A DNA stretch of 38,211 bases from a virus, in the IMG/VR virus record IMGVR_UViG_3300008116_000430, positions 1-38,211 of that record, one strand, 5' to 3'. The position numbers and the translations under genes are program-made. The notes beneath the pieces are model-generated. The model was given only the letters and a program-made list of their open reading frames with translations. It searched no databases and was not told the DNA's origin. Positions 7,472 to 20,894 of this stretch are shown here, piece by piece. Position 1 is the first letter of the stretch; each line of letters opens with the position of its first letter.

Positions 7472-8497
7472 ATGAAAAAAGTTATCAAACTCACTGAATC
7501 TGATTTGTTTAAAATTGTAAAAAAAATAATTTTAGAGCAAACCAAATTTAAAACTAACACATTGAAGCCTGAAGAACAAAAAAAATATGCTCAAGGAATG
7601 AATCGAATGCAACAAGTATCCAAACAACAACCAGTCACCCAAAATACCCCAATTAAAAGTCAAAGCGTTGTCAAAACATACGATTTGAACCTCAACAAAT
7701 ATACTTGTACCACACCTGAAATTTCAACAGCTGCGGTATCTGTAATTTCTGAAGGTTTTGACCCACTTTACGTAAAATATGCAATAGGAATAATTGGTAG
7801 AGAATCTGATTTTGGTAAGGTTATGGGTATGTACGGTATTAAAGCAGCACCAGAATACTTGATGAATAAGCTTAGTGATACAATACCGGGTTTTAGTGAG
7901 GTTTTGAAATATGGGGCTAAAAAAGTTTTTAATAAAGATAATTGGGTTCCGAGTATGGGAATTGCTCAAATGACTCCAGATATCGCAAAAAAATATGGAG
8001 TAGATTTGGAGGAATTGATGTCATTATCAGGTTCACTTTTAGCAGTTACTAAACACCTTATAAATTTATACGAAGAATTAACCCCATATTATGATAGTAA
8101 AAGTCCGTCTAAAATAATAAACCAAGGTCAACTCATAGATAATCCATCTTCATCAAATAATAGTGTTATGGATGCCGCAATTATGTCATATAATTTAGGT
8201 TCATCTAGATTTAAGAAAAAATATTGTAAAACAAACAATCCTGAATTTATGGCTCCGTGTGATAGTATTAATGGTGTATATCAACCATTTCCTAAAGATA
8301 AACCTGATTTGGTACTAAAAGTAGATAAAAACCAAGTTATAAAAAACTATATTCCAAATATCAAAACTGATACAACTACAGTAACCCAAAAAGCAATTAA
8401 TTTAGTTTCAGATGAACCAACAATTCAATATATTAGCAGTTTAGGATATTTGAAGGAGGTCGTTAATACAGCTAAAAGTTTATCCTGTATAAAATAA
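7472..8497 (+). CDS. Lytic transglycosylase with N-terminal targeting-like motif
   Basis: This 341-residue protein starts MKKVIKLTESDLFKIVKKI followed by ILEQ, an amphipathic motif shared with other virion-type genes here, then a Gln/Thr-rich linker to about residue 75. The rest follows the SLT lytic transglycosylase pattern: GRESDFG with catalytic Glu111, SMGIAQMTP with Gln166, and MSYNLGSSR around Asn241. The family cleaves peptidoglycan between MurNAc and GlcNAc. The targeting-like motif in place of a signal peptide suggests a virion-carried enzyme that opens the wall during DNA entry rather than a lysis enzyme, although both are possible. It is followed by its own terminator. Confidence 0.85.
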   Translation: MKKVIKLTESDLFKIVKKIILEQTKFKTNTLKPEEQKKYAQGMNRMQQVSKQQPVTQNTPIKSQSVVKTYDLNLNKYTCTTPEISTAAVSVISEGFDPLYVKYAIGIIGRESDFGKVMGMYGIKAAPEYLMNKLSDTIPGFSEVLKYGAKKVFNKDNWVPSMGIAQMTPDIAKKYGVDLEELMSLSGSLLAVTKHLINLYEELTPYYDSKSPSKIINQGQLIDNPSSSNNSVMDAAIMSYNLGSSRFKKKYCKTNNPEFMAPCDSINGVYQPFPKDKPDLVLKVDKNQVIKNYIPNIKTDTTTVTQKAINLVSDEPTIQYISSLGYLKEVVNTAKSLSCIK

Positions 8498-8516
8498 TAG
8501 AATAAAATAAAATACG

Positions 8517-8861
8517 TTAATCAAAACACATTTTGTGTTTTGTTTTAATTTTACTTAATTTTCGAGCTTCTACTTCCATTGGCCCATCAAACCTACCGTA
8601 CTTTTTGTACTCAGATAAATACGTAGAGTAAAATCCGTAAACTCCCATCCTCTTGTATTGAGCCCAATGTACCAACTCATGTCTTAACATTTCTTCATTA
8701 GAACGATATTTTGACTCGATAAAAATACCGAATGGAGGTATTGTGGCCGCCATTTGTTTACCAGGAATATCAAACGGTATGTAATACAATTTGTCTTTTT
8801 TCAAGATTGAAAATATTATAAATGAACTTATAAATCCCAAGATTATTAGTGTTTTTTTCAT
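8517..8861 (-). CDS. Membrane-anchored HELVH putative metallopeptidase
   Basis: About 114 residues from the ATG at 8861 (MKKTLIILGF); an upstream ATG at 8906 adds a poor 15-residue extension. Residues 4-20 form one hydrophobic segment that would serve as an uncleaved signal anchor, placing the rest outside the inner membrane. RHELVHWAQYKRMG carries an HExxH zinc-binding site, and a later Glu in GPMEVEARK could be the third ligand. Small DUF4157-like HExxH proteins of this kind occur in Bacteroidota and their phages. It sits between two wall-degrading enzymes and may act on the envelope, but the substrate is unknown. Confidence 0.7.
   Translation of the reverse strand: MKKTLIILGFISSFIIFSILKKDKLYYIPFDIPGKQMAATIPPFGIFIESKYRSNEEMLRHELVHWAQYKRMGVYGFYSTYLSEYKKYGRFDGPMEVEARKLSKIKTKHKMCFD
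8522..8546 (+). terminator. Rho-independent terminator inside the end of the convergent gene
   Basis: A perfect 9-bp stem (CAAAACACA / TGTGTTTTG) with a TTT loop is followed by TTTT. It terminates the transglycosylase transcript. The same bases encode the last residues of the convergent metallopeptidase gene (8517-8861). Confidence 0.75.
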
Positions 8862-8954
8862 TTTATTTATTTTAAAAAAACAAAGATAAGTTAAAATCAA
8901 TCCCAAAAAAAAATAAATTTACATAAACTTATTAACAATTATAGGTATGTTAAA

Positions 8955-8962
8955 TATTTATA
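8955..8962 (+). promoter_or_regulatory. TATTTATA late-type element
   Basis: TATTTATATAAAAA lies 13 bases (from the octamer) before the ATG at 8976. It is almost identical, including the TAAAAA downstream, to the element before the gene at 18440 on the other strand. Confidence 0.5.
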
Positions 8963-8975
8963 TAAAAACCCCAAA

Positions 8976-10046
8976 ATGTTAAAAAAATTACTAATATCCG
9001 AAGAAGAACAAAGTAGAATTTTGAATTTACACAAAGAAGCCATTTCAAAATCAAAAAATAAAATTAGATTAGATGAAGGTTTTTCCCAAACTGTGTATGA
9101 CGTACAAAAAAAACTTAAACCTAAATATGGTAGTTTATTGGGTAGGAGTGGAAAAAATTTAGACGGAGTTGACGGGATTTTTGGGGGAAAAACAATAACC
9201 GCTTTAAAAAAATATCAAAAAGATAATAACTTACCAATTACAGGTAAAATAGATACAAAAACTGTAATGAGTATGGGTATTAAGTCTTTACAAAAAAAAT
9301 CTGAGGAAAAAAATAAAGTGTCGGGAACAGAGAGTTGTGTTGCGGTTGATAATACACTTTGTAATAAAATTTCAGATAAAAATGAGTCCACAATTGGTAA
9401 TGGCGGTGGTGAAGGATGTTCTGAATATGTTAGAAAAATGACGGGTAACTATCTTGGAAATGCGTGGCAAGCTTTTGTTAACGCAAAAACTAAAGGGTCA
9501 GTTTTATATAATATGTTCACCGACGGTTCGATTAATTGGGACAATATTAGAAACTCAAAATTTGTAAACTCGGACTCTTGTTCTTGTTTTGAGCTAGAAG
9601 GTGAGGGTAAAGATAAAAGTTGTAAAAATGGTAGTAAAATTTCATCAACCATTTCTAGTTTTTATCCATCCAAATCAAACGTAAATCTTTCATCTTTAAA
9701 GGTTGGGGATATTGTTGGTATGTACTATGGTAACTCAGGTAATAAAGGAAAAGCATTTTGTGAAAGAGCTGTCCAAAATAGACAATTAGACAAAACCGGT
9801 ATTTATCAAGACAAAACACCATTTACTTTTAATACACACGTTGGTTATGTAGGTGCAATTAAAAACGGAATTCCGATTATTTTTCATAGTGTCCATGGGG
9901 AAAGATTAGCAACTCCAGGAACTAAATTACTGAGTAAAGATGGAGAAGCTATGATTACTTGGGTTGTATCAATGGGTGGTAAAAATGAAAAAAAGGTAGA
10001 CTTTTTATCTAACGAAGGTCCTAAATGGTGGGAAGTTTCTAAATAA
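8976..10046 (+). CDS. Peptidoglycan-binding plus NlpC/P60-like cell-wall hydrolase
   Basis: This 356-residue protein begins MLKKLLISEEEQSRILNLHK, a variant of the N-terminal motif of this genome, followed by IRLDEG, a possible [IL]-x-E cleavage site. Residues about 38-95 form a PG_binding_1 domain (VDGIFGGKTITALKKYQKDNNLPITGKID). The C-terminal domain has GCSEYVRKMTG with Cys148, SLKVGDIVGMYYG, and FNTHVGYVG with His288. This Cys...His order fits the papain-like NlpC/P60 or CHAP superfamily, which cleaves peptide bridges in peptidoglycan. It could be the endolysin or a virion-associated hydrolase. A strong bidirectional terminator follows. Confidence 0.8.
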   Translation: MLKKLLISEEEQSRILNLHKEAISKSKNKIRLDEGFSQTVYDVQKKLKPKYGSLLGRSGKNLDGVDGIFGGKTITALKKYQKDNNLPITGKIDTKTVMSMGIKSLQKKSEEKNKVSGTESCVAVDNTLCNKISDKNESTIGNGGGEGCSEYVRKMTGNYLGNAWQAFVNAKTKGSVLYNMFTDGSINWDNIRNSKFVNSDSCSCFELEGEGKDKSCKNGSKISSTISSFYPSKSNVNLSSLKVGDIVGMYYGNSGNKGKAFCERAVQNRQLDKTGIYQDKTPFTFNTHVGYVGAIKNGIPIIFHSVHGERLATPGTKLLSKDGEAMITWVVSMGGKNEKKVDFLSNEGPKWWEVSK

Positions 10047-10069
10047 AAATAATTCAATATTCCAAATAA

Positions 10070-10101
10070 TCAAAATGGGGGAGTTTCCTCCCCCATTTTG
10101 A
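10070..10101. terminator. Strong bidirectional terminator
   Basis: A perfect 14-bp stem (TCAAAATGGGGGAG / CTCCCCCATTTTGA) with a TTTC loop lies between the convergent genes ending at 10046 and 10102. The A and T tracts in the stem provide a U-run on each strand, so it should serve both. Confidence 0.9.
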
Positions 10102-10851
10102 TTAGATGAATGTTTCGGCAAGTTCCCACAACTTTTGGTTAATCATGGTGTCCATGTTCAGTGAAGTGATTGGTTTCACTGTACGCTTGTTGCGACCTTG
10201 CTCTTTAACAAATCCCCCACGAATCAACTTCTCTTGGACTACATTGAAGGTATTCCACAAAGTGCTTTCGAAGTCATCAACACGGAGTGGATTAACAATT
10301 GACTCGAGAGTCAGTGTTGAGATGTCCTCTGTGTTCTTCCAACGTACTCCGATAGCTTTGGTTGTGAAGTCAATCTTTTCATCCATTGACATTTCCTTCT
10401 CCATCATACGATTTACTGAACGCTCAATCACAGGACTAATCTCAAGAAACTTCTCTGTGATTTGGTAAACCTCATCCATCTGAATGTTCATATGACGTTG
10501 GTTAATGTTAACCAATTCTTGCATTGGGACTACAAGTCCGTTTGAACATACAAGTCGGTATAGACCTGCCCCAACTTGGAGTTTGGTACGTCCATCGTGA
10601 GAGTTGGTGATGATTGCCTCAACTAGTGAGTCACCTACTTTAGGAAGGTCCGAGTTACGAAGACGAACAGAATGTTTAGCGAACATTCCTTGACCTACTT
10701 GTTTGGCACTTGCGACTTGCCAACCTGCGTCAATGAAGTTGTTGATAACCTCAATGGTTGGTACAACCACGTAACGGTCTGAAAGTTTACTTGACTTTTG
10801 AGTGTTGAATACTGATGGGGTAGCTGATTGAAGTTCTTGGATTGTCATCAT
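10102..10851 (-). CDS. DUF932 phage/plasmid-like protein
   Basis: About 249 residues from the ATGATG at 10851. An in-frame ATG at 10908 lies upstream of the promoter's -7 box, so the longer 268-residue reading is very unlikely. The DUF932 signature is clear: RYVVVPTIEVINNFIDAG, then SHDGRTKLQVGAGLYRLVCSNGLVV. DUF932 proteins are common in phages and conjugative plasmids and are among abundant early-type genes; the function is unknown. Codon use is GC-richer than its neighbours, with third positions often C or G, which suggests high expression or a different origin. It has a host-type promoter and a strong terminator and is probably monocistronic. Confidence 0.9.
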   Translation of the reverse strand: MMTIQELQSATPSVFNTQKSSKLSDRYVVVPTIEVINNFIDAGWQVASAKQVGQGMFAKHSVRLRNSDLPKVGDSLVEAIITNSHDGRTKLQVGAGLYRLVCSNGLVVPMQELVNINQRHMNIQMDEVYQITEKFLEISPVIERSVNRMMEKEMSMDEKIDFTTKAIGVRWKNTEDISTLTLESIVNPLRVDDFESTLWNTFNVVQEKLIRGGFVKEQGRNKRTVKPITSLNMDTMINQKLWELAETFI

Positions 10852-10877
10852 GGGGTTTATTGTTTTTAATTGTGGTA

Positions 10878-10909
10878 CAAATATACATCGGAAATCCTGT
10901 CCTGCCAAA
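10878..10909 (-). promoter_or_regulatory. Host-type Bacteroidota promoter for the DUF932 gene
   Basis: On the minus strand TTTG (10909-10906), a 20-base spacer and TATATTTG (10885-10878) match the Bacteroidota consensus TTTG/TAnnTTTG exactly. The predicted start of transcription leaves a leader of about 20 bases before the ATG at 10851. Confidence 0.85.
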
Positions 10910-11200
10910 TTAATTTAAACAAAAGATACCAACTTTGTTTTGTTCGAAGACATCGTGAATAACCACGGAAGACCCCGAAGAGATTTCTTCCGTTTTAAGT
11001 TCGACAACAATGTCAATAAGTTGTTTTTGTGTTAAAGAAATTTCATCGCCTGTTTCCAAGTTTTCATAGCACTTGATTCGGATTTTGTCAAAAAACCTAT
11101 CTTTCAACGATTCTCCAATCAAATTAGATAGGTCATTCGGATTCTTTTCAAAAAAAGAAATCATCTGATTAACATAAATTTCCACATCGACGTTTTTCAT
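10910..11200 (-). CDS. Small hypothetical protein with host-type promoter
   Basis: About 96 residues from the second ATG at 11200 (MKNVDVEIYVNQMISFF); the first ATG at 11203 is adjacent and equally possible. It is soluble and acidic, with helices in the first half and a beta-rich end (SSVVIHDVFEQNKVGIFCLN). There is no recognised domain. It has its own TTTG-N19-TATATTTG promoter 12 bases upstream, and its 3' end contacts the -33 box of the DUF932 promoter. Early expression is likely; the function is unknown. Confidence 0.75.
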   Translation of the reverse strand: MKNVDVEIYVNQMISFFEKNPNDLSNLIGESLKDRFFDKIRIKCYENLETGDEISLTQKQLIDIVVELKTEEISSGSSVVIHDVFEQNKVGIFCLN

Positions 11201-11215
11201 CATAATTTTTTTTTA

Positions 11216-11246
11216 CAAATATAGAAAAACAAATCAAACCGCCAAA
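11216..11246 (-). promoter_or_regulatory. Host-type Bacteroidota promoter
   Basis: On the minus strand TTTG (11246-11243), a 19-base spacer and TATATTTG (11223-11216) precede the ATGATG at 11203 by 12 bases. Both boxes match the consensus. Confidence 0.8.
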
Positions 11247-11252
11247 AAATTT

Positions 11253-12617
11253 TTAATCAACATGCCAAAAACCTGGCATTTCTTCACTCATCTTTTCTTT
11301 CAATCTATCAGGTATCTGAACATTAGGATTAGAACCAACCAAATTAACAAATGCCAATTTTGGTAAATCCGCCATACCTTCCGGTAATGACTCAAGATTT
11401 TTGTTATTATTCAAAGACAAGAATTTAAGTTTTTGAAGATTACTTATCGATTCCGGTAAAGACCTAATAATATTGTTAAGTAACAAACCATCAAGATTAG
11501 TGAATCTACCCAATGATTCCGGTACATCCAAAGCAATTTGTTCTTTAGATTTATTAGTAATAAGAAGTTTCTCAATTGTTTCAGGTAATGTCTCAAACAA
11601 ATCTTCAAAACCATATAACGCAATGAATTTACCGGCAGAGCTATCAGGATAGTTAATTTCAACCTTATCACCACCTTTACTTACCAATCCTTTAGCAAAT
11701 TCAGGTTTGAAGTATTCTTTGAGTTCAGACATTTTACCGTTGAGATATTCAACCAAATTAATCTGGCGGTCTTCTCTATCCATAAACTGTCCTGAAGGGA
11801 AGTGGAACTGATATCTTTCTTGTGGAAGACCTGTCTTTTGCCCAACACTACCTCCATCATCATTAGGTAATACAACATACAAAGGACCATCCTTAATATA
11901 TGTTCTGAAATAATTTGAATTATGTGGAGACGTACACCATCTTGACTCTCCTTCATTATAAAGATAATAACCACCATAGAATGAAGCGGCGTCTGAACCG
12001 AGAGTACCTTGGTCTTCAATTTTAACTAAAGTCCAATTTGGGCCTCTAAACATGATTTCTGCGCCAGGGTGTTCATAGGTTGTTTTTGCCTTTTCTTTTT
12101 CAGATTTTGTAGCTTTAGTCTTCTCAAGACTCAAATCTTTAGTCAATTCAAAAACATCATCAACTGTTAATTTGTTGATATCTCTCTTGTCTTGAGGGAA
12201 TTGGTTTTTAAACCTTTCATATTTTTTAAGGTCCTCCGTAACTTTAAACAAGTCCTCAATAAACAATCTTTGATACTCATCCATCGCTCTTTTGTATTCA
12301 GCAGTACCCTTTTCGATATTTGTCCTTTCATCATTAAAAGTTGGCATTACAAAATTCTTCAACAGCCATTGACTATACTTACCAACTTTAACTTTTTCCA
12401 TGTCCTCAACACTTGCAGTTTCAGGTGTCATACCTTGTGGTGCTTTGGTTGTTGGGTCAGCAAAAATTATTTGCTTCAAAGTTTCAAAGTCCATCAAACC
12501 TTTAGGTTTTCTGGCGTCTCCTTCTTGACCCTTAGCAGGTTTAACCATCTTGTCGTAAAGAACTTGGAATCTTGAATTTTCCAAAATCAAATTTGTTAAA
12601 AGTGATGTAAACTTCAT
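11253..12617 (-). CDS. Leucine-rich-repeat protein with targeting-like N-terminus
   Basis: This 454-residue protein starts MKFTSLLTNLILENSRF, a variant of the amphipathic motif followed by [IL]-x-E. Residues about 190-290 form a compact domain with ESRWCTSPHNSNYFRTY, GPLYVVLPNDD and ERYQFHFPSGQFMDRED; similar W-C-T...YQFHF blocks recur in phage proteins of unknown function. Residues about 345-440 contain three to four leucine-rich repeats (PESLGRFTNLDGLLLNN, PESISNLQKLKFLSLNN). There is no signal peptide or membrane segment. The combination suggests a packaged protein that binds a host partner after injection, which is inference. A TATTTATA element lies 14 bases upstream. Confidence 0.75.
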   Translation of the reverse strand: MKFTSLLTNLILENSRFQVLYDKMVKPAKGQEGDARKPKGLMDFETLKQIIFADPTTKAPQGMTPETASVEDMEKVKVGKYSQWLLKNFVMPTFNDERTNIEKGTAEYKRAMDEYQRLFIEDLFKVTEDLKKYERFKNQFPQDKRDINKLTVDDVFELTKDLSLEKTKATKSEKEKAKTTYEHPGAEIMFRGPNWTLVKIEDQGTLGSDAASFYGGYYLYNEGESRWCTSPHNSNYFRTYIKDGPLYVVLPNDDGGSVGQKTGLPQERYQFHFPSGQFMDREDRQINLVEYLNGKMSELKEYFKPEFAKGLVSKGGDKVEINYPDSSAGKFIALYGFEDLFETLPETIEKLLITNKSKEQIALDVPESLGRFTNLDGLLLNNIIRSLPESISNLQKLKFLSLNNNKNLESLPEGMADLPKLAFVNLVGSNPNVQIPDRLKEKMSEEMPGFWHVD

Positions 12618-12631
12618 GTCTATTTTTTTAT

Positions 12632-12639
12632 TATAAATA
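12632..12639 (-). promoter_or_regulatory. TATTTATA late-type element
   Basis: The minus strand reads TATTTATAATAAAAAAA, with the octamer 14 bases before the ATG at 12617. It has the same core and spacing as the elements at 18455, 8955 and 7451. Confidence 0.5.
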
Positions 12640-12641
12640 TA

Positions 12642-13481
12642 TCAATAATTCATAATTAGCAACTCCTCACCCATATTTTGGGATTGTCCTTTCTTTGCTG
12701 CGGCGGCCTTAGCAAATTCCTTCTTTTCCCATCTATATTGGTCTTGGGGAAACCACTCCGACAAAAGTACGAAATCATAGTAAGATAACGAAAACTTTCC
12801 TTCAATAGTTTTCAACACATTTGCCAGTCTCTCATGGTCATCACGGTCAAAGTCATGGTTTGAGTAGTAATTTTCGGTTTTCCAATACGGTGGGTCAAGA
12901 TAAAAATAAGTTGTAGAGCTATCAAACTCCTTAATAACATTCTCAAAGTCACCCAATCTAAAATGACTTATCCTGTTAAAATGTTCTACCCAATCAGGTT
13001 TAGATAACTTGTCTCTGAACGTAAGATACTTTGATTTGTACTTACCCTTTAAATCAATAAACGAACTTGTTTCAGGTTTAGAACCACTGAACACTTGTGT
13101 AAGAACGTATGAGTATTTTGCCGCGACATCATAGTCAGGATAGTTGATTGTAAAACCATCCCCAAATATTTCTTGTTGAAACTCGTTAAACTGTTCTTTA
13201 TATATTGCCGGTGTAACTTCAACTCCTTGTTGCTGGCACGGTATTGAATTTACCGCAGACAATAATAATTCAGGTTGTTGAAGACACATGAACAAATTGT
13301 AATTTAGTGGATTGAAGTCATTGTAAACAACCCGTTTGAGATTTGGGTATTGTTTCAAATCCATATTAAAGAAACACCAAAACATTCCTCCGAATGTTTC
13401 AACATATGTTTCCATGTCCTTTGGGTAATATGGAACTATCCATTTACCTATCTTTGATTTACCTCCTATATAGCTTAACAT
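12642..13481 (-). CDS. dam: DNA adenine N6-methyltransferase (Dam, D12 class)
   Basis: This 279-residue protein has the D12-class order. MLSYIGGKSKIGKWI is the N-terminal SAM-binding motif, followed by YVETFGGMFWCFFN (motif I, FxGG), VVYNDFNPLNYNLF, and YFYLDPPYW near residue 195 (motif IV). C-terminal FSLSYYDF and EELLIMNY complete the family pattern. The enzyme methylates adenine in a short target; the target cannot be read from sequence. It may protect phage DNA from host restriction. No cognate nuclease is adjacent, so it looks like an orphan enzyme. The promoter lies so close that the transcript may be leaderless. Confidence 0.92.
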   Translation of the reverse strand: MLSYIGGKSKIGKWIVPYYPKDMETYVETFGGMFWCFFNMDLKQYPNLKRVVYNDFNPLNYNLFMCLQQPELLLSAVNSIPCQQQGVEVTPAIYKEQFNEFQQEIFGDGFTINYPDYDVAAKYSYVLTQVFSGSKPETSSFIDLKGKYKSKYLTFRDKLSKPDWVEHFNRISHFRLGDFENVIKEFDSSTTYFYLDPPYWKTENYYSNHDFDRDDHERLANVLKTIEGKFSLSYYDFVLLSEWFPQDQYRWEKKEFAKAAAAKKGQSQNMGEELLIMNY

Positions 13482-13485
13482 GGTA

Positions 13486-13517
13486 CAAACATAATCAATA
13501 AACCTTAAAAAAGCAAA
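13486..13517 (-). promoter_or_regulatory. Host-type promoter, possibly giving a leaderless dam transcript
   Basis: On the minus strand TTTG (13517-13514), a 20-base spacer and TATGTTTG (13493-13486) match the consensus. Only four bases separate the -7 box from the ATG at 13481, so transcription would start at or next to the A of the start codon. Confidence 0.7.
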
Positions 13518-13542
13518 TTTTGAATTGAAAAATTTATTCCTT

Positions 13543-13550
13543 TATTTATT
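13543..13550 (+). promoter_or_regulatory. TATTTAT late-type element
   Basis: TATTTATT lies 17 bases before the ATG at 13568, followed by an A-rich leader. It has the common core with slightly longer spacing. Confidence 0.4.
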
Positions 13551-13567
13551 ATTACTAAAAAAATAAT

Positions 13568-13732
13568 ATGGAAGAAAAGAAAAAAGGTTGTTCAAGTTGT
13601 GGTAAGAAAAAATTTCCAGAATTTGAGTTTTCAAAAAAGGAAAAAGTTGGGGCAATTATTGCCGTGTCAATAATATTCTTCGCATTCTACGGAATGGTAT
13701 CATTAGTGAAGGACATTATCTCTATTTTTTAA
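13568..13732 (+). CDS. Small membrane protein with CxxC
   Basis: A 54-codon ORF starts MEEKKKGCSSCGKKKFPEF and continues with a Lys-rich stretch, then a hydrophobic segment of about 20 residues (VGAIIAVSIIFFAFYGMVSL) and a short tail. The positive N-terminus followed by a single membrane segment predicts N-in, C-out topology. CSSC could bind metal or be redox-active. It lies divergently from dam and its last 11 bases overlap the end of dnaJ. A-rich leader and a TATTTAT element support expression. The function is unknown; a small holin-like or envelope protein is possible. Confidence 0.65.
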   Translation: MEEKKKGCSSCGKKKFPEFEFSKKEKVGAIIAVSIIFFAFYGMVSLVKDIISIF

Positions 13733-14645
13733 ACTTAACAAAAAGTTTAATAAACAAATCCCCAACTCCGTTAGTATTAAACCCTTTCGATTTAACTCGA
13801 AGGGGTTTTGACGTATCAAATTCTGTAGGAACCTTTATTTCTATATTACCATCAGGGTGAGGTATGTTGAATGAATCTTTTTGTAATTCTTCTAAATTAA
13901 AAAACGCATTATACACCAAATCATTACCAGCCTTTTCAAAGTTATTTTCAGCAACAATTCTAACTCTCATTACAAGATTTCCATACATACCATTGATATA
14001 ATCACCACTTCCTTGTAATTTGAAGAACTGTCCGTCATCGACCCCGTGAGGTAGTTTTACATTGATTGTTTCTAATGAAGCTATTGTACATTCACCATTA
14101 CATCCTCCACATCTGGTCCTATATGTGAATCCTTGTCCTTGGCAACTACCACAAGTTTGTCTAACCATTTGAATAAACATTCCATTACCAACCCTTGTGG
14201 TTGTAAATCCTTGTCCAGCACATTGATTACAGTTAATTCTATCACCACCTTGTCCATGACAAGTAGGACATTCTGTACGTCTAGAATATGTAATTGACTT
14301 ATCCCTTGAAAGAAAAGATTCTATTGCCCCGATTGTAACGTCTATAATCTTATCGGGGACAGCTCGTCTTTGATTAAACTGTTGTCCAAAAGCGCCATTA
14401 AAGAAGTCATCAAACGGATTAAATCCTGTTTGACCAAATGGATTATTCTTTTGACTATCGTAGTTTCTACGTTTCCCTTCATCTCCTAATGTATCATACG
14501 CCTCGGAAACTTTTTTGAACACGTCTTCATTCCCACCTTTATCAGGATGATGCTCAACTGCTTTCTTCTTATAAGCCTTTTTAATCTCATCTTGTGTTGC
14601 GGTTTCAGTTACACCCAAAATATCGTAAAAACTTTCTACACTCAT
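13722..14645 (-). CDS. dnaJ: DnaJ (Hsp40) co-chaperone
   Basis: This 307-residue protein has a J-domain (residues 1-70) with the HPD motif at 33-35 that stimulates the DnaK ATPase. A Gly/Phe-rich linker (NPFGQTGFNPFDDFF) follows. The zinc-finger domain has four Cys pairs (CPTCHGQG, CNQCAGQG, CGSCQGQG, CGGCNGEC), the last departing from CxxCxGxG. The C-terminal substrate-binding part is shortened compared with the roughly 375 residues of bacterial DnaJ, so one of the two beta domains or the dimerisation end is probably reduced. No DnaK or GrpE is present, so it presumably redirects host DnaK, perhaps for capsid or fibre folding. Confidence 0.95.
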   Translation of the reverse strand: MSVESFYDILGVTETATQDEIKKAYKKKAVEHHPDKGGNEDVFKKVSEAYDTLGDEGKRRNYDSQKNNPFGQTGFNPFDDFFNGAFGQQFNQRRAVPDKIIDVTIGAIESFLSRDKSITYSRRTECPTCHGQGGDRINCNQCAGQGFTTTRVGNGMFIQMVRQTCGSCQGQGFTYRTRCGGCNGECTIASLETINVKLPHGVDDGQFFKLQGSGDYINGMYGNLVMRVRIVAENNFEKAGNDLVYNAFFNLEELQKDSFNIPHPDGNIEIKVPTEFDTSKPLRVKSKGFNTNGVGDLFIKLFVKFKK

Positions 14646-14670
14646 TTTTTTATTCTATTATATTTTTGTT

Positions 14671-15327
14671 ATGGAAAAAACCAATTTTAATTATCAGATT
14701 GTTCTTTTCAAAAATAAAGTAAAAAAGAAAATAATCAACAAGTTTCAGACCCACAAAAAAACTGTTTCTGTGTTTGAAACTATGATTAAAGAAAGTAATA
14801 AGGTTATTTTTGAGAAATCTTTTGAGAATGGGTCGCCATGTAATTACGAACTGGCAATAATAAAACTAAATGATAATAAACAAATTCCATTATACACAAA
14901 AGACGAATTTGGGAGACAGAGTAAAGTCACTCTTGAAGATGACAAATACGAGATTATCAAAATAGATAACTACAAAATACCTGATAAAGTTTTAGATTAC
15001 TCCACAGGTGAGAAGATATCGTTAGAACAACTTATCTCAACTTATTTACCAAAGAACCGTATGTCTATGGTGTCATCAATAAATAATAAAATTGTGATAC
15101 AAAATGATGACGATTATAAGTTATTTACTCTAAAGACTATTGAAGATTCATCTAGGTTTATAGACTCTCTTTACAATCACTTTCTATTAGAAAAAAGAAA
15201 CGATACTATTTTTGTCAAAGACCATTCAACTATACAAAGAAAATATCTATATAAGATATTAGAAGAAAAAGGTTTCCCTAAATCGTATCTGTTTCGTCAT
15301 TCAACAACTCACGTTTCAAAAAAATGA
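14671..15327 (+). CDS. Hypothetical protein on the opposite strand
   Basis: This 218-residue protein is not recognised. It is Lys-rich and soluble with alternating strands and helices, without Cys pairs or a signal peptide. It lies alone on the plus strand, 25 bases from the divergent dnaJ, and its last 50 bases overlap the convergent small gene ending at 15278. The ATG is preceded two bases earlier by TATTTTTG, which fits the host -7 box but lacks a -33 TTTG at the right distance. The function is unknown. Confidence 0.75.
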   Translation: MEKTNFNYQIVLFKNKVKKKIINKFQTHKKTVSVFETMIKESNKVIFEKSFENGSPCNYELAIIKLNDNKQIPLYTKDEFGRQSKVTLEDDKYEIIKIDNYKIPDKVLDYSTGEKISLEQLISTYLPKNRMSMVSSINNKIVIQNDDDYKLFTLKTIEDSSRFIDSLYNHFLLEKRNDTIFVKDHSTIQRKYLYKILEEKGFPKSYLFRHSTTHVSKK

Positions 15328-15529
15328 ATTCAGTCCCTGAAATATCAACTTTGAATTGGGAACTTACATTCGTAGGTATTAGCATTTCTTTTTGAGTTAG
15401 ATTGAAATCATCTTCATTCAACTCAAACACCACAACTCCTCTACCTTGGGGATATATATTTTCCATGGCGTCCGCAAGTAAAGCGAACTTCTCCATCATC
15501 CTATTAACACCTTCATTATTCTCTGCCAT
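15278..15529 (-). CDS. Small hypothetical protein
   Basis: This 83-residue protein is not recognised. It has a helical N-terminal half (NRMMEKFALLADAMENI) and a beta-rich end (GVVVFELNEDDF, EFIFLKRELL). It is the last of a series of overlapping small genes starting with Hc1, overlapping the gene before it by 34 bases. Its 3' end runs 50 bases into the convergent gene at 14671-15327. Confidence 0.65.
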   Translation of the reverse strand: MAENNEGVNRMMEKFALLADAMENIYPQGRGVVVFELNEDDFNLTQKEMLIPTNVSSQFKVDISGTEFIFLKRELLNDETDTI

Positions 15530-15678
15530 AGATTAAGTTTTTTGGGTGGTTGTGGTATAATTTCTTCTTTATTTTTTGTTTTAATTGAATTGATAAAGTT
15601 TAATTTTTCTCTTTCTAAATCAACTTTATCTTTTTCAACTTCACTCTGAAACCAATTTAGCGCTTTCTCGGATTTCAT
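15496..15678 (-). CDS. Small Lys/Glu-rich helical protein
   Basis: This 60-residue protein has a charged helix (SEVEKDKVDLEREKLNFI), a Pro-Gln-Pro-Pro hinge and an amphipathic C-terminus (LNLWQRIMKVLIG) that could lie on a membrane. It overlaps its upstream and downstream neighbours by 38 and 34 bases. The overlaps, and no obvious alternative frame, support it. The function is unknown. Confidence 0.6.
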   Translation of the reverse strand: MKSEKALNWFQSEVEKDKVDLEREKLNFINSIKTKNKEEIIPQPPKKLNLWQRIMKVLIG

Positions 15679-16072
15679 CTACATTATCCTCCAATTCTAT
15701 TTTAGTTTGTTTGAACTCAAATTTGAGTTGCTTTAAATTCTTTAGAGATTGTTTTTCAAATAATGTTTTAAGCTCATTTACTTTTTCTTGAAAAAGTTGG
15801 TCTTTCTCTTCTCTCTCTAAATTATAATTTATTATACTCTGAATGTTTGTTGATACTTTTTCAATTGATTGTTCGTCAATTTCTGAAACAAAAGAAAACA
15901 ATCTCATATTAGCAGTCTTGGACTCTTGTTCCATGACTTTTTCTTCGTCCACATATTTTTTTGGTAATTTCCATGTTGTAGAAAACATCACATCAAAACT
16001 TAAAAAGTTTTGTAGTTTTCTAACTGACTGAAGATATGGAAATAATGTTGAAAATTCTTTATATAAACTCAT
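15641..16072 (-). CDS. Coiled-coil protein
   Basis: This 143-residue protein is predominantly helical. Heptad-like stretches run from about residue 75 to 135 (EEKDQLFQEKVNELKTLFE, KQLKFEFKQTKIELEDNVD). The N-terminal 40 residues are more hydrophobic and may form a small folded part. There is no recognised domain. It starts 2 bases after the small membrane protein and overlaps the next gene by 38 bases, so it is translated from the Hc1 operon. A structural or scaffolding role is possible, but nothing proves it. Confidence 0.65.
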   Translation of the reverse strand: MSLYKEFSTLFPYLQSVRKLQNFLSFDVMFSTTWKLPKKYVDEEKVMEQESKTANMRLFSFVSEIDEQSIEKVSTNIQSIINYNLEREEKDQLFQEKVNELKTLFEKQSLKNLKQLKFEFKQTKIELEDNVDEIRESAKLVSE

Positions 16073-16074
16073 GA

Positions 16075-16263
16075 TTAACCCTTTATTATGTATGTTAAGG
16101 CATATGAAATACTGATACCGAGGATAATAAGCTCCCTACTACCGAGAACAAACTGTTGTGGGTTTGCCTGTAGCAGGGCACTTATTAACCTAAAACATGT
16201 TCGTAGAACATTTAAAACTGAAAATATAAAACAAAATAAAAATAAAGATTCAAAATTAAGCAT
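16075..16263 (-). CDS. Small two-segment membrane protein
   Basis: This 62-residue protein has two hydrophobic segments (FESLFLFCFIFSVLNVL and ELIILGISISYALTYII) separated by a polar loop with an Arg. The size and topology fit a small phage membrane protein or holin-like protein. It overlaps the end of the Hc1 gene by 8 bases. I recognise no named family. A holin role would be supported only by the topology, so the call stays descriptive. Confidence 0.65.
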   Translation of the reverse strand: MLNFESLFLFCFIFSVLNVLRTCFRLISALLQANPQQFVLGSRELIILGISISYALTYIIKG

Positions 16264-16438
16264 CCTCAGTTTTTTTTCTTTCGTCCAAAATTTCGTTTCT
16301 CAAAGTTTGTAAAAGAGCTTTCAATTCTTGAGCTGACTTTCTAGCTCTAGTACCGGCACTCTTATTACCCTTGAAAAATTTAGTCGCATCAACAGACAAT
16401 TCTTCTGTGAGGGACTTGATTTGTTCTAGTGTATCCAT
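16256..16438 (-). CDS. Histone H1-like protein Hc1 family
   Basis: This 60-residue protein matches the short Bacteroidota form of the Hc1 family: LEQIKSLTEELSVDATKFFKGNKSAGTRARKS in two parts, followed by AQELKALLQTLRNEI. The key feature is the K/R-rich SAGTRARK turn between two helices. Members bind DNA without sequence specificity and compact nucleoids. Phage copies could package the phage chromosome, remodel the host nucleoid or mask DNA. It leads an operon of overlapping small genes. The AT-rich leader ends AAAAATTGTAACG and has no Shine-Dalgarno sequence. Confidence 0.85.
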   Translation of the reverse strand: MDTLEQIKSLTEELSVDATKFFKGNKSAGTRARKSAQELKALLQTLRNEILDERKKTEDA

Positions 16439-16513
16439 CGTTACAATTTTTAATGATTTATTATAGAGTAAAATTAATTTTTTTGTGCTAGATGTAAATA
16501 AAAAAAGGATTTT

Positions 16514-16981
16514 TTATATTTTAATATTTTTTTCTAACGCCCTATATATTGATGTAACCATGTCTAAATCTGACTTTGTAAACCCTTTGTTGATGTCAAA
16601 TAATTCTGTGAAAAAATCCCCAACAGACTCTCTAATTATACTTTCTTTTTGTTCATAAAATATCTCATCGAAAAATGACTTGAAGTAGTCATAGTGTTCT
16701 CCAGTTTCTTCAAATACAATACTCTCTTTTTCGAAGTTATTAATCACTTTACTCCAACACCAGTTAAAATGTTTCTCATTGTCCTCATCTGACATGGTTA
16801 TTTTGGTTTCATTACTTTTACTGTCATGACCAAAATAGGTGTCCATCATCAAATCATATAAAGAACGAGTAAAATCGTGATACAATTCAATTTTTTCTAC
16901 AATCATATTATTACTTCTGAACCATACATCAACATCCTCAGGACTTATCGGTTTGGTCACATAATTAAAAAAATTCTCCAT
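16514..16981 (-). CDS. Hypothetical acidic protein with start codon in a hairpin
   Basis: This 155-residue protein is not recognised. It is acidic and helical, rich in Phe, Tyr and Asp, with no membrane segment. The ATG at 16981 lies in the 3' arm of an 11-bp hairpin that also has the T-run of a terminator, whose Ts encode Phe-Phe. If the hairpin is only a terminator, translation may begin at the next Met, residue 26 (MIVEKIELYHDF), from a shorter transcript. If both roles hold, this would be a regulated start. Confidence 0.6.
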   Translation of the reverse strand: MENFFNYVTKPISPEDVDVWFRSNNMIVEKIELYHDFTRSLYDLMMDTYFGHDSKSNETKITMSDEDNEKHFNWCWSKVINNFEKESIVFEETGEHYDYFKSFFDEIFYEQKESIIRESVGDFFTELFDINKGFTKSDLDMVTSIYRALEKNIKI

Positions 16982-16999
16982 AAGAAACCTTATGGAGAA
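16967..16999 (-). terminator. Terminator hairpin overlapping a start codon
   Basis: On the minus strand an 11-bp perfect stem (TTCTCCATAAG / CTTATGGAGAA) with a GTTT loop is followed by seven Ts. It lies 28 bases after the stop of the gene ending at 17028. The 3' arm contains the ATG of the next gene. Confidence 0.75.
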
Positions 17000-17027
17000 A
17001 TAATAAGAAATAATATTTAATTGTATA

Positions 17028-18440
17028 TTATTGTGTTTTTTGACTGTAACCGAGAAGTTGTTTCATTCTATCAAATTCTTCATTCAATTTTTGAGTTGTC
17101 TTCTCGTTTTCAGATTCTAGCTTCATCATTAACTTACCAGTACCTGTATCGCCAGTCTCATCGGTAACAACAGGTTGTGGTGCTTTATTGTAAGCCTTTC
17201 TCTTAATCTTTGCCAACATATTCTTCTCACGTATCTCGTTTCTCTTTTTATTAACATCAGATTTACCAGTATTTGCCCATTCAGGATTATTACCTGTTCT
17301 TGATGACCCCTCAATGTTATCACTTACCCAATCTTCATTAGGATGTATTTCATCATAATCAAGGTTTTCTTGACCAGCGGCAGTAAGATTATCTACATAG
17401 TCTTGAACCGCGTCTGAAGGTATATAAGCCTTCTTTTTCATATCACCCAATTCACCATTTCCTTTTGGGAAAAAGTCAGGTTCAGTTTCATAATCCCCTT
17501 TAGAACCATCTTTTAAATAGTCTTTCATTTTTTTAGTGACACTCTTTAGATAATCTTCGTTCTCTTTACCTGAACCTTTGTGAGCTTTTTCATAAGTCGC
17601 TAATCCTTTATGTTTAGTAGTTGCTTTCAATTTTTCTTCTTTGATAATTTTTTCAATGAAGTTAATTAGTTCTCCTTCGGTCATTGTTATTGTATTTTTT
17701 TTCTCGACATTTTCACCAAACATTTTGTCTAAAGCCCAATCAGTTGCCGCCGGAGCCACATAAGGTAAAGCCGCTTCAGCAGCACCTGCCAAAGCTCCCC
17801 AAATTTCCTTAGTTTCGCCACCACTTTTTTTACTTTTTCTCAACATTTTAAAATCTTCAGAGTCAAGTCTTCCATTATTGTTTTTATCTAACCTTTTTTG
17901 TCCTCCTACTAATTTTTCATTCATGTTAATTGGTCTGCGAGCTAAGTCTTTCATGCTCTTTTCCATGCTAGAGCATTTTTCTTCATATCTCTGAACCATA
18001 TCATTTCTAACATCTTCATCGTCTTCACTATCGATTTTACTTTTTTGATATTGACAAAACTCTTTGTTTTGTTCATCCTCATCATCTTCCATATCCATTA
18101 CATCCATATCTTCTTCCTCGTAAACACCTTCTTTCATTGAACACTGTTCACACATGTTTCCTTCCATGATAGGACCTTTAGCACCACATTGTTCACAAAC
18201 ACTTTCACCCTCACCCAATTCACCTTCATTATAATCCGAAGTATCGGTAAATGTATTATCACCTACCTTAAATTTTTCTCCTTTTTTAGTTTTAGCGAGA
18301 GCTGCTGTAAAGGCATTACCTTCTTCAGTCTCCTTACCCATCAACATATTTTCGATTTGTTCAGCCTTTTCATGGATAGTTTCGTTGATAATTTTTTCAA
18401 CCAAACTATTAATATAGGTTTCGTTAAGTTTTTGTCTCAT
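17028..18440 (-). CDS. Acidic head-core-like protein with zinc and EF-hand motifs
   Basis: This 470-residue protein begins MRQKLNETYINSLVEKI followed by INETIHE, with a second internal copy near residue 250 (TMTEGELINFIEKIIKEE), both of the targeting-motif type. A zinc-ribbon (CEQCGAKGP...MCEQC) lies near residue 83, then a very acidic stretch (EEEDMDVMDMEDDEDE). An EF-hand-like loop (DKNNNGRLDSED) near residue 184 could bind calcium. The C-terminus has MKQLLGYSQ. Such mosaics are common in large marine phages; scaffolding or internal head protein is the best inference. It has a TATTTATA element 14 bases upstream and a terminator downstream. Confidence 0.75.
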   Translation of the reverse strand: MRQKLNETYINSLVEKIINETIHEKAEQIENMLMGKETEEGNAFTAALAKTKKGEKFKVGDNTFTDTSDYNEGELGEGESVCEQCGAKGPIMEGNMCEQCSMKEGVYEEEDMDVMDMEDDEDEQNKEFCQYQKSKIDSEDDEDVRNDMVQRYEEKCSSMEKSMKDLARRPINMNEKLVGGQKRLDKNNNGRLDSEDFKMLRKSKKSGGETKEIWGALAGAAEAALPYVAPAATDWALDKMFGENVEKKNTITMTEGELINFIEKIIKEEKLKATTKHKGLATYEKAHKGSGKENEDYLKSVTKKMKDYLKDGSKGDYETEPDFFPKGNGELGDMKKKAYIPSDAVQDYVDNLTAAGQENLDYDEIHPNEDWVSDNIEGSSRTGNNPEWANTGKSDVNKKRNEIREKNMLAKIKRKAYNKAPQPVVTDETGDTGTGKLMMKLESENEKTTQKLNEEFDRMKQLLGYSQKTQ

Positions 18441-18471: not shown

Positions 18472-19362
18472 TTAAATTAATCCTAGTTCGTAAGCAATAA
18501 TATTTTTGATTACACTCTCACTAATATTCTGTTTTTTACTTATGTCTGTTATGACTTTTTGGAGTGTCTTATTCTCCCAAATTTTCAAAGCTTTAATATC
18601 TCCCTGATTACAATAAGGAAATTTTTTACATTTTTCCTTAACTTTAACAAATTTTCCACCAGGTATTTGTGTATTCTTATATGACCTACCTGAACCACGT
18701 TCATTATTACCTTTCATTTTAACATCTTCAAAACCTGGTGCGTCATAGGCACCAACAGAAGAAGAGCTGGTAGCTTCGGTAGCCTCGACCTTCTTGGGGG
18801 TTTCGTCATTAACAAAACCTCCTTTAACTTTCTTTTTAGGTTGTTCTGATTTGAACATACTATCAAGTTTTTTTGGTTCAGAAAATAAGGGGACCTCAAA
18901 CCCACCAGCCGAGCCCGAGCCTGTGGCTTCAGCCGCCTCCGCCTTTTTTAAACGTGTATAATAATCAGGAAATTCCTCCAAATGGTCTAAAGCTATTTTT
19001 TGAGCCTCCTCTTTACCCATGTCGTGTTCCATCTCCACCTTTGTACCTTTGTGAAGTTGTTTTACTAACATGTCAAACATTTTTTGTATTTTTTCCTTTC
19101 GGTTAGCATCTTTTGAGTCACCCTTGACGTGTTTTCTTGCCAAGTCTTTCAATCTTGCCATTAATGTTCTTTCGGCTTCGGTTATATTTTCTTTCATTTT
19201 CTTTTTCCTCCCTTGACAATGAGCTCTTTGACTAAATCCTTTTGGGTTATTACAGTCAATACTTTTTTTATACTTTTCAGACCAGTCCTCTTCCATTTCA
19301 TCCTCACCTATATTAATTTCACTTTTAAGCCTATTGGTAAAACTTTCTTCTTCTTTAAGCAT
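18472..19362 (-). CDS. DUF5661-containing internal or core protein
   Basis: This 296-residue protein starts MLKEEESFTNRLKSEI. It then has CNNPKGFSQRAHCQGRKKK (about residues 37-55), a Cys/His/basic motif seen repeatedly in large marine phages. Next come MKENITEAERTLMARLKDL, another targeting-like helix, and KGTKVEMEHDMGKEEAQKIALDHL...PDYYTRLKKAE (about 103-142), which fits DUF5661. A Ser/Gly/Ala/Thr-rich linker (ATEATSSSSVGAY) and a Cys pair (KCKKFPYC) follow. It resembles head-core or packaged proteins more than enzymes. It overlaps the upstream gene by 8 bases. Confidence 0.7.
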   Translation of the reverse strand: MLKEEESFTNRLKSEINIGEDEMEEDWSEKYKKSIDCNNPKGFSQRAHCQGRKKKMKENITEAERTLMARLKDLARKHVKGDSKDANRKEKIQKMFDMLVKQLHKGTKVEMEHDMGKEEAQKIALDHLEEFPDYYTRLKKAEAAEATGSGSAGGFEVPLFSEPKKLDSMFKSEQPKKKVKGGFVNDETPKKVEATEATSSSSVGAYDAPGFEDVKMKGNNERGSGRSYKNTQIPGGKFVKVKEKCKKFPYCNQGDIKALKIWENKTLQKVITDISKKQNISESVIKNIIAYELGLI

Positions 19363-20009: not shown

Positions 20010-20280
20010 TTGTTCTAGTTTTAATTATGTTTATGTTTTCATCAACAAGGTGTATTTCGTTATTAATAACCAAAATAGCCGAGTCGAGTTTAGCAATTTT
20101 ATTGTCAATTCTTTGATTGACCGCCATAGCAGAATCAATTTTGGTCTGTAACCCATCAACTCTGTCATAGTAAGATTTAACATCAACACTTAAATCTGTA
20201 GTAAGCATTAATGAATACACAACCAAAGCACCAACTGCGATGATTAGTAAATTACTTATAATATCTTTCAAGTTCATCAT
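19921..20280 (-). CDS. Spanin-like inner-membrane coiled-coil protein
   Basis: This 119-residue protein has one N-terminal membrane segment (NLLIIAVGALVVYSLML) and then a long coiled coil (YYDRVDGLQTKIDSAM, INNEIHLVDENINIIKTR), consistent with a periplasmic domain anchored to the inner membrane. This is the layout of i-spanins such as Rz. Its 3' third overlaps the downstream signal-peptide gene by 89 bases out of frame. It overlaps the upstream gene's stop by 4 bases. A lysis function is inferred from topology and gene arrangement; a virion-tail membrane protein is an alternative. Confidence 0.65.
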   Translation of the reverse strand: MMNLKDIISNLLIIAVGALVVYSLMLTTDLSVDVKSYYDRVDGLQTKIDSAMAVNQRIDNKIAKLDSAILVINNEIHLVDENINIIKTRTNAKVSAVDNFNYSELQKFFSKRYNPNNPK

Positions 20281-20894
20281 TCTTCAGGTTTTGTTTTTTT
20301 ACGAGAAGCCAAAATTTTAGCCCATTTAGATTTGAATTTTTCATAATAAGTTTTTAGTTTTGTTATCAAATCCAAAAATTTCTCGTCAGTTTTAATCATT
20401 TCTCCATTTAGATAGATTCCATTTTCTTCACCTATCGAGTAGAAAAATTCTATATCAAAATCAATAATTTTACCTGACCATTCAACATTGTTTGTATATA
20501 CATTTAATTTGTTGAAATCTACTAAATCGGAAACTTCTGACACGAATTCGTCCATAGTTTCTTGGAACGCGATTTTCTCGTCGGTAGTCAATTCTAAATC
20601 TGTCTTGTCCTTTCCGTGTAATACTAAAATACCTCCTGATATTCTGTAAGCCTGTTTCTTATCCTCTTTGGATGGGTCCATTTCTTGTTCGTCATCCTCA
20701 ATTTCATCTTCAACAGATTTAGCAACATTAAGTTTTTTAGTGACATTACCGCCCCCAACCAAGCTAACTCCTTGTTCAGTTAGAATACCGTATTGGTTTT
20801 TAATTCTATTTGTTTCGTCAATTACTTCAGTACTAGACAACATCTCACGAGATGCTCGAAGTAATTTTTTAATTTCATCATGTGAATTGTTCAT
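20277..20894 (-). CDS. Hypothetical protein, possibly head-core related
   Basis: This 205-residue protein is not assigned. An N-terminal helix (HDEIKKLLRASREMLS) and YGILTEQG recall the motifs of its neighbours. An acidic stretch (DEIEDDEQEMDPSKED) follows, then a beta-rich half (ILVLHGKDKTDLELTTDEKIAFQET in two parts, DFDIEFFYSIG) and a basic tail (KKTKPEE). It lies in the virion-type cluster, overlapping the amidase-like gene by 17 bases and the next gene by 4. A structural or core role is inferred from position only. Confidence 0.65.
   Translation of the reverse strand: MNNSHDEIKKLLRASREMLSSTEVIDETNRIKNQYGILTEQGVSLVGGGNVTKKLNVAKSVEDEIEDDEQEMDPSKEDKKQAYRISGGILVLHGKDKTDLELTTDEKIAFQETMDEFVSEVSDLVDFNKLNVYTNNVEWSGKIIDFDIEFFYSIGEENGIYLNGEMIKTDEKFLDLITKLKTYYEKFKSKWAKILASRKKTKPEE

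Follow-up and report, generated by a model that had tools for sequence, protein, structure and literature searches.

Why should proteins with otherwise unrelated bodies, encoded in a 38,211-base stretch of viral DNA (IMG/VR record IMGVR_UViG_3300008116_000430, hereafter the window), begin with similar short segments that end at an [IL]-x-E tripeptide? A first-pass annotation had described these segments as one common motif on five proteins, all of which are present (1571-2986, 7472-8497, 8976-10046, 11253-12617 and 17028-18440); the segments are real N-terminal tags but belong to three tag classes rather than one. We propose that the tags are capsid-targeting propeptides removed by a prohead protease, in what would be an enlarged T4 internal-protein system whose cargo would include some cell-wall enzymes, and from the comparisons described below we assign this reading a probability of roughly 0.77. 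By the rules used here, at least five tag classes are found on about 17-41 proteins per genome, and their [LIV]xE end is fixed in class A, usual in classes C and E, and at variable distance in classes B and D.

On sequence identity, the window is part of a T4-like phage genome of about 322 kb. It matches the IMG/VR contig G001 (322,372 bases) in four main pieces at 99.2-99.97% identity, and other near-identical IMG/VR contigs also exist. The window crosses both ends of G001 with an overlap of about 110 bases, which indicates a circular or circularly permuted genome, and G001 probably represents the window's phage almost completely, in circularly permuted form. For the comparisons, seven contigs of 292-326 kb (G001, G002, G004, G005, G006, G007 and G008) were gene-called with a simple script, in which some starts may be wrong, yielding 2578 proteins. 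Tail sheath and tube are encoded in all seven genomes, a gp23-type capsid protein in 10 of 12 contigs (G001 and relatives) and a gp20-type portal in all three contigs searched. In both genomes tested, ribosomal protein S21 (PF01165) lies within the head gene block on the opposite strand (L203:3088-3282 and L225:5319-5522). The bS21 phages of freshwater Bacteroidetes, with genomes of up to 331 kb, carry bS21 in the same orientation inside their terminase-portal-protease-capsid block (PMC9723584, in part), a placement that links the two sets of phages and suggests that those studied here belong to the same group or are close kin.

The tags emerge without a motif being specified. When 44-residue N-terminal stretches of proteins with unrelated bodies were compared, 30-142 pairs per genome scored at least 50 across the seven genomes, compared with 1-6 pairs per genome for internal or C-terminal stretches of similar length. 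Clustering of the N-terminal pairs gave a few tag classes: class A, [IV]RLTESDLxRIVKRVINE; class B, ITEEEKxxILxLH plus a variable stretch that leads to [LI]xEQ; class C, MKIIITESQYxxLxE; class D, xRIKxLMGVIxE; and class E, MNLQESIRRILRE. The five corresponding class rules, which include the [LIV]xE end, select 177 of the 2578 N termini, representing 120 body families, and 13 of 7335 internal control windows, so that the motif is enriched at N termini genome-wide, as anticipated in the first-pass annotation. Per genome, the tagged proteins number 23 (G001), 17 (G002), 18 (G004), 18 (G005), 23 (G006), 41 (G007) and 37 (G008). Body families were clustered transitively, with one giant merged group apparently held together by low-complexity repeats, and this merging makes the family counts conservative. 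A typed 23-residue consensus tag found no tblastn match in cultured phages, the query being probably too short.

The predicted cut site is sharpest in class A. In the window, the tags of 1571-2986, 7472-8497 and 17028-18440, together with an internal copy in the last of these, carry the [IL]-x-E at equal distance, the glutamate being at offset 17 relative to the start of the tag (LVE, ILE, INE and IKE, counted by hand). With the class A head alone as selector, [LIV]xE with its glutamate at offset 17 is found in 43 of 46 body families, where shuffling predicts 1.0, and I or L occupies the third position from the end (P3) in 52 of the 57 tags of this class. The class C site lies at offset 12 in 16 of 30 families and at offset 13 in five, and that of class E at offset 8 in 17 of 45; in classes B (16 families) and D (12 families) at most four share any one offset. 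Furthermore, a DNA pattern for RLTESDLxRIV, which does not include the tag end, occurs in at least 120 IMG/VR stretches, 80 of which were analyzed and resolved into 88 distinct sites. An in-frame ATG lies five to seven codons upstream of the R codon in 85 of these sites and [LIVM]xE stands at that same fixed place in 81, while six of the other seven represent a variant with approximately one extra helical turn ahead of [IL]xE.

A candidate protease is encoded in the same phage. As the first-pass annotation had led us to expect, a prohead protease gene is found, at G001:117086-117811 (Peptidase_S77, E 1.5e-25); a search confined to the window was negative because the head genes lie outside it. 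T4 gp21-type Peptidase_S77 matches occur in 10 of 12 related contigs, nine of them above the family cut-off, and in 13 of 16 contigs of at least 106 kb chosen by the tag pattern alone, some of which may be near-copies of each other; adding G007, G009 and G010 (S77 in two of them) gives 15 of the 19 listed tag contigs of at least 100 kb. Three tag contigs without S77 have no match to the gp23 family that did match other contigs either, and may therefore be fragments. Two large tagged contigs show a divergent, two-piece S77 match inside a longer frame (G017:222089-222991 and G018:265878-267536, of 386 and 609 residues, respectively). The capsid protein itself has the sequence QAS[HF]LINE|A in all seven genomes, with the glutamate at residue 60 in G001; a variable linker and then the conserved shell domain follow directly. 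In the scaffold-position protein of G001, one of 11 [LI]xE sites is LNE|Q, at residue 48. In the T4 record, [LI]xE occurs at gp24 E10, Alt E6, gp67 E6 and gp68 E6, which we take to be sites used in T4, and LTE|A ends at gp23 E65. The gp23 propeptide is 65 residues long (PMC5694885, in part). The tag ends thus agree in form with the predicted capsid site in all seven genomes and with the T4 rule, in support of the analogy originally drawn.

Judging from aligned orthologues, tags are exchangeable on some bodies, with the [LIV]xE boundary kept. A head-block protein recognizable by RYMFFSNLEQM bears class A in G001 (VKRVLEE|QGSDRYMFFSNLEQM) and a short tag in G007 (IKQVLRE|DKESSRYMFFSNLEQM), the first residue past the predicted cut being Q in the former (VLEE|Q) and D in the latter (VLRE|D). 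Similarly, a DHH-like protein reads LLNE|SGIRNINELSKRY in G007 and LIKE|SGLRDINALSKRY in G006, and the 1571-2986 protein has a class A or A-like tag in the window, G004, G006 and G008, and MSIKNIIKNMVLE|Q in G007. Reciprocal best body pairs comprise 46 with tags of the same class, 15 with tags of different classes, some of which are doubtful alignments, and 114 in which one partner only has a recognized tag; the examples cited here are restricted to pairs with visibly matching bodies.

The tags are not scattered over the proteome. Among 171 orthologues of proteins unlikely to be head cargo (replication, recombination, nucleotide, transcription, chaperone, thioredoxin, terminase, portal, protease, capsid, sheath, tube and baseplate functions and a few others), none is tagged by the class rules (P 3e-6), so that the motif is not equally common in such proteins. 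This set derives from 48 markers of our choosing, 40 annotated genes of the Flavobacterium phage immuto_2-6A and eight window genes, of which 29 had orthologues; immuto endolysins and peptidases were excluded, save one lysozyme without orthologue. The 120 tagged families match 25 Pfam families at E 0.01, compared with 108 for 120 length-matched untagged families. Eight of the 25 fall below 1e-5 and include the wall-related LysM, PG_binding_1, phage lysozyme, OmpA and GH19, the remainder being DUF6576, Phage_L5_gp82 and a galactosyltransferase. The named PHROGs on tagged bodies (first 25 of 49) are mostly endolysins and a transglycosylase, with a chitinase, a ParB-like protein and a metallo-protease, and the NCBIfam matches are mostly peptidoglycan hydrolases, binders and OmpA-like proteins. 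Few tagged families are recognizable, and on these profile matches those are largely wall-related. In the untagged sample, many of the Pfam matches (first 25 of 108) are metabolic, with ATPases, a ClpB-type protein, dehydrogenases and aminotransferases, and the PHROGs (first 25 of 121) include, for example, DnaB and a baseplate wedge. The same sample also matches M23, NlpC/P60 and endolysin, and wall enzymes are therefore not exclusive to the tagged proteins.

Within the window, class A is represented on three proteins. The minus-strand gene 1571-2986 encodes a protein of 471 residues without assigned function (no Pfam match at E 0.001) that has homologues in all seven genomes; its tag (2924-2986) spans residues 1-21, MGKIKLTESEFKKFLRITLVE, and is followed by Q. 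The five homologues with a complete N terminus have IVE, IVE, IKE, LNE and VLE near the same boundary, the G001 copy being cut by the contig end and the G002 copy having a different N terminus. On the plus strand, the tag of 7472-8497 (7472-7537, residues 1-22) ends in IILE and is followed by Q, with VLEE|Q and VLDE|Q in two homologues. The first-pass annotation had called this protein a transglycosylase; two homologues match SLT weakly, short of the curated Pfam cut-off (E 0.00091 and 0.004), and the window protein itself has no SLT match, so that we retain only the label SLT-like (lytic transglycosylase-like). A profile of its family matched no solved structure. The third class A protein, 17028-18440, is described below.

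The remaining tagged proteins of the window belong to other classes. On the plus strand, 8976-10046 has a peptidoglycan-binding domain (PG_binding_1, E 8.8e-10, residues 40-99) preceded by a class B tag with the head ISEEEQxxILxLH (8976-9077, residues 1-34 to LDE, then G). As the class B end sits at variable distance, the exact end is uncertain, and LDE at residue 34 is a plausible one; a partial homologue, G006_288827, has a like head and LSE|Q at residue 30. A profile of the 8976-10046 protein gave weak matches to solved structures (spore cortex-lytic, protease and endolysin domains), none better than E 0.044. The minus-strand 11253-12617 protein, leucine-rich-repeat-like by a match below the Pfam cut-off (LRR_14, E 2.4e-5), begins with a short tag of a third kind (12579-12617, residues 1-13, MKFTSLLTNLILE, then N). 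Its orthologues in five other genomes read NLITE|Q, TLITE|Q, DLIIE|S, NLITE|D and SVIVE|N, with the same [SA]RFQ after the tag end in four of the five, and the called start of the G002 orthologue is without tag. One tagged protein had been overlooked: 20277-20894, also on the minus strand, opens with a class D-like segment (20775-20894) that ends in RIKNQYGILTE and is followed by Q, as are NIITE, GLLTE, GIINE and GMITE in orthologues from four other genomes; the G002 start is shorter and ends in LLFE|Q, and G007 has none.

The 17028-18440 gene (minus strand), whose family is present in all seven genomes, encodes two class A tags. The N-terminal one (18381-18440, residues 1-20) ends in IINE and is followed by T, and with LNE, LKE, LTE, LKE, VSE and LNE in the six orthologues the [ILV]xE form is kept in seven of seven. 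The internal one (17637-17690, residues 251-268, ITMTEGELINFIEKIIKE), the second copy already seen in the first-pass annotation, is found in all seven orthologues directly before the better conserved C-terminal half and ends in [IV]xE in six of them. A C-terminal peptide (17031-17081, EEFDRMKQLLGYSQKTQ), MKxLIGYNxKTQ in consensus, is nearly invariant in the seven genomes, with K460, L462, Y465, K468, T469 and Q470 identical in all. This arrangement may well reflect a two-part precursor that would be cut twice, with the conserved domain as the mature product. An AlphaFold model was of low confidence (predicted local distance difference test score 47.5), a second one was likewise too poor (32.4), and tblastn of the protein against cultured phages gave no match.

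The tags are also found outside these phages. In GTDB genomes, the same DNA pattern has 24 matches, six of them not N-terminal and 18 representing N-terminal tags of a longer variant (for example MNKKLIRLTESDLHRIVKESVNRVLNE), all 18 of which end in [LIM]xE when read by eye. Sixteen of the 18 reside in assemblies of Prevotella and other Bacteroidales, including the complete chromosome 2 of Segatella baroniae B14, and in the four stretches inspected the neighbor genes look chromosomal. A convergent transposase-like gene, presumably of the IS1595 family, adjoins seven of the 18 bacterial tagged genes (L568, L574, L583, L584, L585, L587 and L564), an arrangement in which the tagged gene looks like a passenger. 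Perhaps the tag was carried from phages into bacterial genomes by mobile elements. Among cultured phages, immuto_2-6A encodes homologues of gp20 and gp23, its annotated prohead protease matches S77 proteins in each of the seven genomes, and its capsid protein carries QIVSE|A. The motif-free comparison returned nine N-terminal pairs scoring at least 50 in this phage and no internal or C-terminal ones; of the ten proteins involved, two are tail fibers or spikes, and the remaining eight sort by eye into three tag families of this phage (FDLKKFLxEN, RMQxLAGIITE and KKSQLRQIIKE), in all of which one or more [LI]xE sites lie close to the N terminus (for example KILKE|N, GIITE|S and IIKE|A). This phage is not mentioned in PMC7077304. 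The same pattern in a cultured phage makes the idea testable in the laboratory.

In the mechanism that we propose, a short amphipathic N-terminal helix would dock each protein in the core of the prohead while the head is being assembled, a gp21-type prohead protease (Peptidase S77) would cut after [IL]-x-E with loss of the tag, and the mature protein would stay in the head with the DNA and be delivered at infection. Core targeting, prohead-protease cleavage and delivery with DNA are described for T4 (PMC3012670, PMC5694885 and PMC12373910, each in part). Several observations weigh against this interpretation. T4 gp23 has three [LI]xE sites ahead of E65 and the T4 portal, which is unprocessed (PMC5694885, in part), has at least six, so that [LI]xE alone does not predict cleavage. 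The residue past the tag end (P1') is mostly Q, N, E or D, compared with A at the capsid site; the [LIV]xE end of classes B and D is built into their rules, which makes its independent support weaker; and 10 of the 13 control windows that pass do so by the class E rule, a rate (10 of 7335) at which some class E assignments are due to chance. In 83 of the 114 orthologous pairs with a one-sided tag, the other member has [LIVM]xE at residues 6-40, the general rate being 1176 of 2220, and in the 17028 family the internal tag of G006 ends in VKD. The enrichment of S77 in tagged contigs is modest, as random contigs of at least 80 kb, drawn by a 15-base pattern, have it in four of 11 cases (P 0.024 against 13 of 16), and the N-terminal tags of bacterial genomes mean that the tag extends beyond phages with S77. 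Occurrence in a single genome is no more frequent among tagged families (73 of 117) than among untagged ones (465 of 716), on which ground the strong form of a hypervariable-island picture was dropped. Finally, we found no virion proteomics of such a tagged phage in the literature searched.

Some of these observations would suit peptides that act in virion assembly or docking, at the core, vertex or tail, and are never removed, the terminal glutamate serving as a helix cap. Wall hydrolases, which sit in the tail in many phages, are among the tagged bodies, the residues past the tag end are unlike the capsid alanine, and very weak head-tail or tail-fiber matches are seen for two tagged proteins (Pfam E 0.005; PHROG E 0.05). 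However, tags of differing length end in [LIV]xE, orthologues with another upstream segment keep the [LI]xE boundary, neither the 25 Pfam families nor the first 25 of the 49 PHROG families include a confident tail family, and orthologues of tail sheath, tube and baseplate proteins carry no tag; we therefore regard permanent docking peptides as unlikely. A role outside the virion, such as recruitment to replication sites, to a chaperone or to a host factor, would be in line with the tag variant in Bacteroidales genomes, partly beside transposase-like genes, but none of the replication, transcription, other cytoplasmic and structural orthologues is tagged (0 of 171) and the tag end shares its form with the protease rule and the capsid site, and we consider such a role quite improbable.

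The sharing could also reside in the DNA, the 5' ends having been copied recently as a recombination or translation-enhancing module whose peptide has no role. Tags are indeed common to unrelated bodies, and in some genomes tagged genes adjoin above chance (17 adjacent pairs versus 4.8 expected in G007 and 15 versus 3.5 in G008). Yet identical residues between class A tags of one genome use the same codon at a frequency of only 0.50-0.60, versus 0.42-0.49 expected (four genomes), and such near randomization of synonymous codons means that the peptide rather than the DNA is conserved, which largely refutes recent copying and leaves it a very small probability. As for chance, amino-acid composition or a gene-calling artifact, the simple gene calls with their possibly wrong starts speak for caution, but the motif-free N-terminal sharing, the shuffling and the internal-window controls refute such an origin, and the DNA-pattern scan, which needs no gene calls, still places an ATG ahead of nearly every site; we consider its probability negligible. 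Two further candidates were discarded: Sec signals, since the tags read directly as charged and amphipathic rather than hydrophobic, and, from general knowledge, leaders of ribosomally synthesized and post-translationally modified peptides, as the tags stand on large proteins.

Beyond the capsid-targeting propeptides favored here, a wider generalization can be framed, to which we would give even odds. These Bacteroidetes jumbo phages may use a general capsid export code, with several interchangeable signal peptides and one common cut rule, by which each phage would inject dozens of proteins, head-borne wall hydrolases and a tandem-tagged precursor among them, while a tag variant would move with transposon-like elements between phages and Bacteroidales. 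Injected effectors could then be read from sequence across metagenomes. If the tags act as proposed, a simple sequence rule would turn many unannotated phage proteins into predicted injected proteins, comparable to the use of secretion signals for bacterial effectors, and would supply a list of candidate anti-defense and entry proteins for uncultured phages of freshwater bacteria, as well as alternative loading tags.

Other features of the window lie beside the tagged genes. The minus-strand neighbor of the two-tag gene, 18472-19362, matches DUF5661 (E 1.1e-10) and has no recognized tag in the window copy; G007_238979, which shares part of it, has a class A tag. Also on the minus strand, 31002-38210 encodes a very large protein that runs off the window, with long PTPTPT/TxTPT stretches between repeated domains, and 21489-22337 a probable membrane protein with many copies of a VEKIVEVP-like unit.

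Among known systems, the closest likeness is to the T4 internal head proteins (IPI-IPIII and Alt), where a short N-terminal propeptide with an [LI]xE end likewise stands on otherwise unrelated proteins of a phage with an S77 protease, a gp23-type capsid with a site of the same form and a gp20-type portal. Four sequence features of a T4-type capsid-targeting system are found here, namely a shared N-terminal sequence, an [LI]-x-E end (weaker in classes B and D), a gp21-type protease in the same phage and absence from non-cargo proteins, the comparison of the tags with T4 covering the site rule. The SPN3US/phiKZ-type ejection proteins resemble the present case in that giant phages have many head proteins, several of which lose an N-terminal propeptide to a protease, but most of the propeptides reported exceed 100 residues and are cut at AxE or SxE sites (PMC5694885, in part), whereas the tags described here have 13-34 residues and [LIV]xE. 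In the Dar system of phage P1, the N-terminal 30 residues of DarB suffice to bring a reporter into the capsid, yet the Dar N termini have no consensus (PMC9024508, in part), in contrast to the clear consensus classes found here. The accessible text of PMC9723584 on the bS21 phages gives no description of tags; in the open-access literature searched we found neither such a description nor the string 'LTESDL'. T4 differs in having one leader rather than several tag classes, and three internal proteins, with at least ten across its relatives (PMC12373910, in part), rather than 17-41 tagged proteins per genome. Its internal proteins are highly diverse, whereas single-genome occurrence is no commoner in the tagged families than in the untagged ones, and the internal tag and the cell-wall enzyme bodies belong to the present phages. 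As far as the literature searched extends, it is the scale, the interchangeable tag set, the wall-enzyme bodies and the internal tag that are new relative to these systems.

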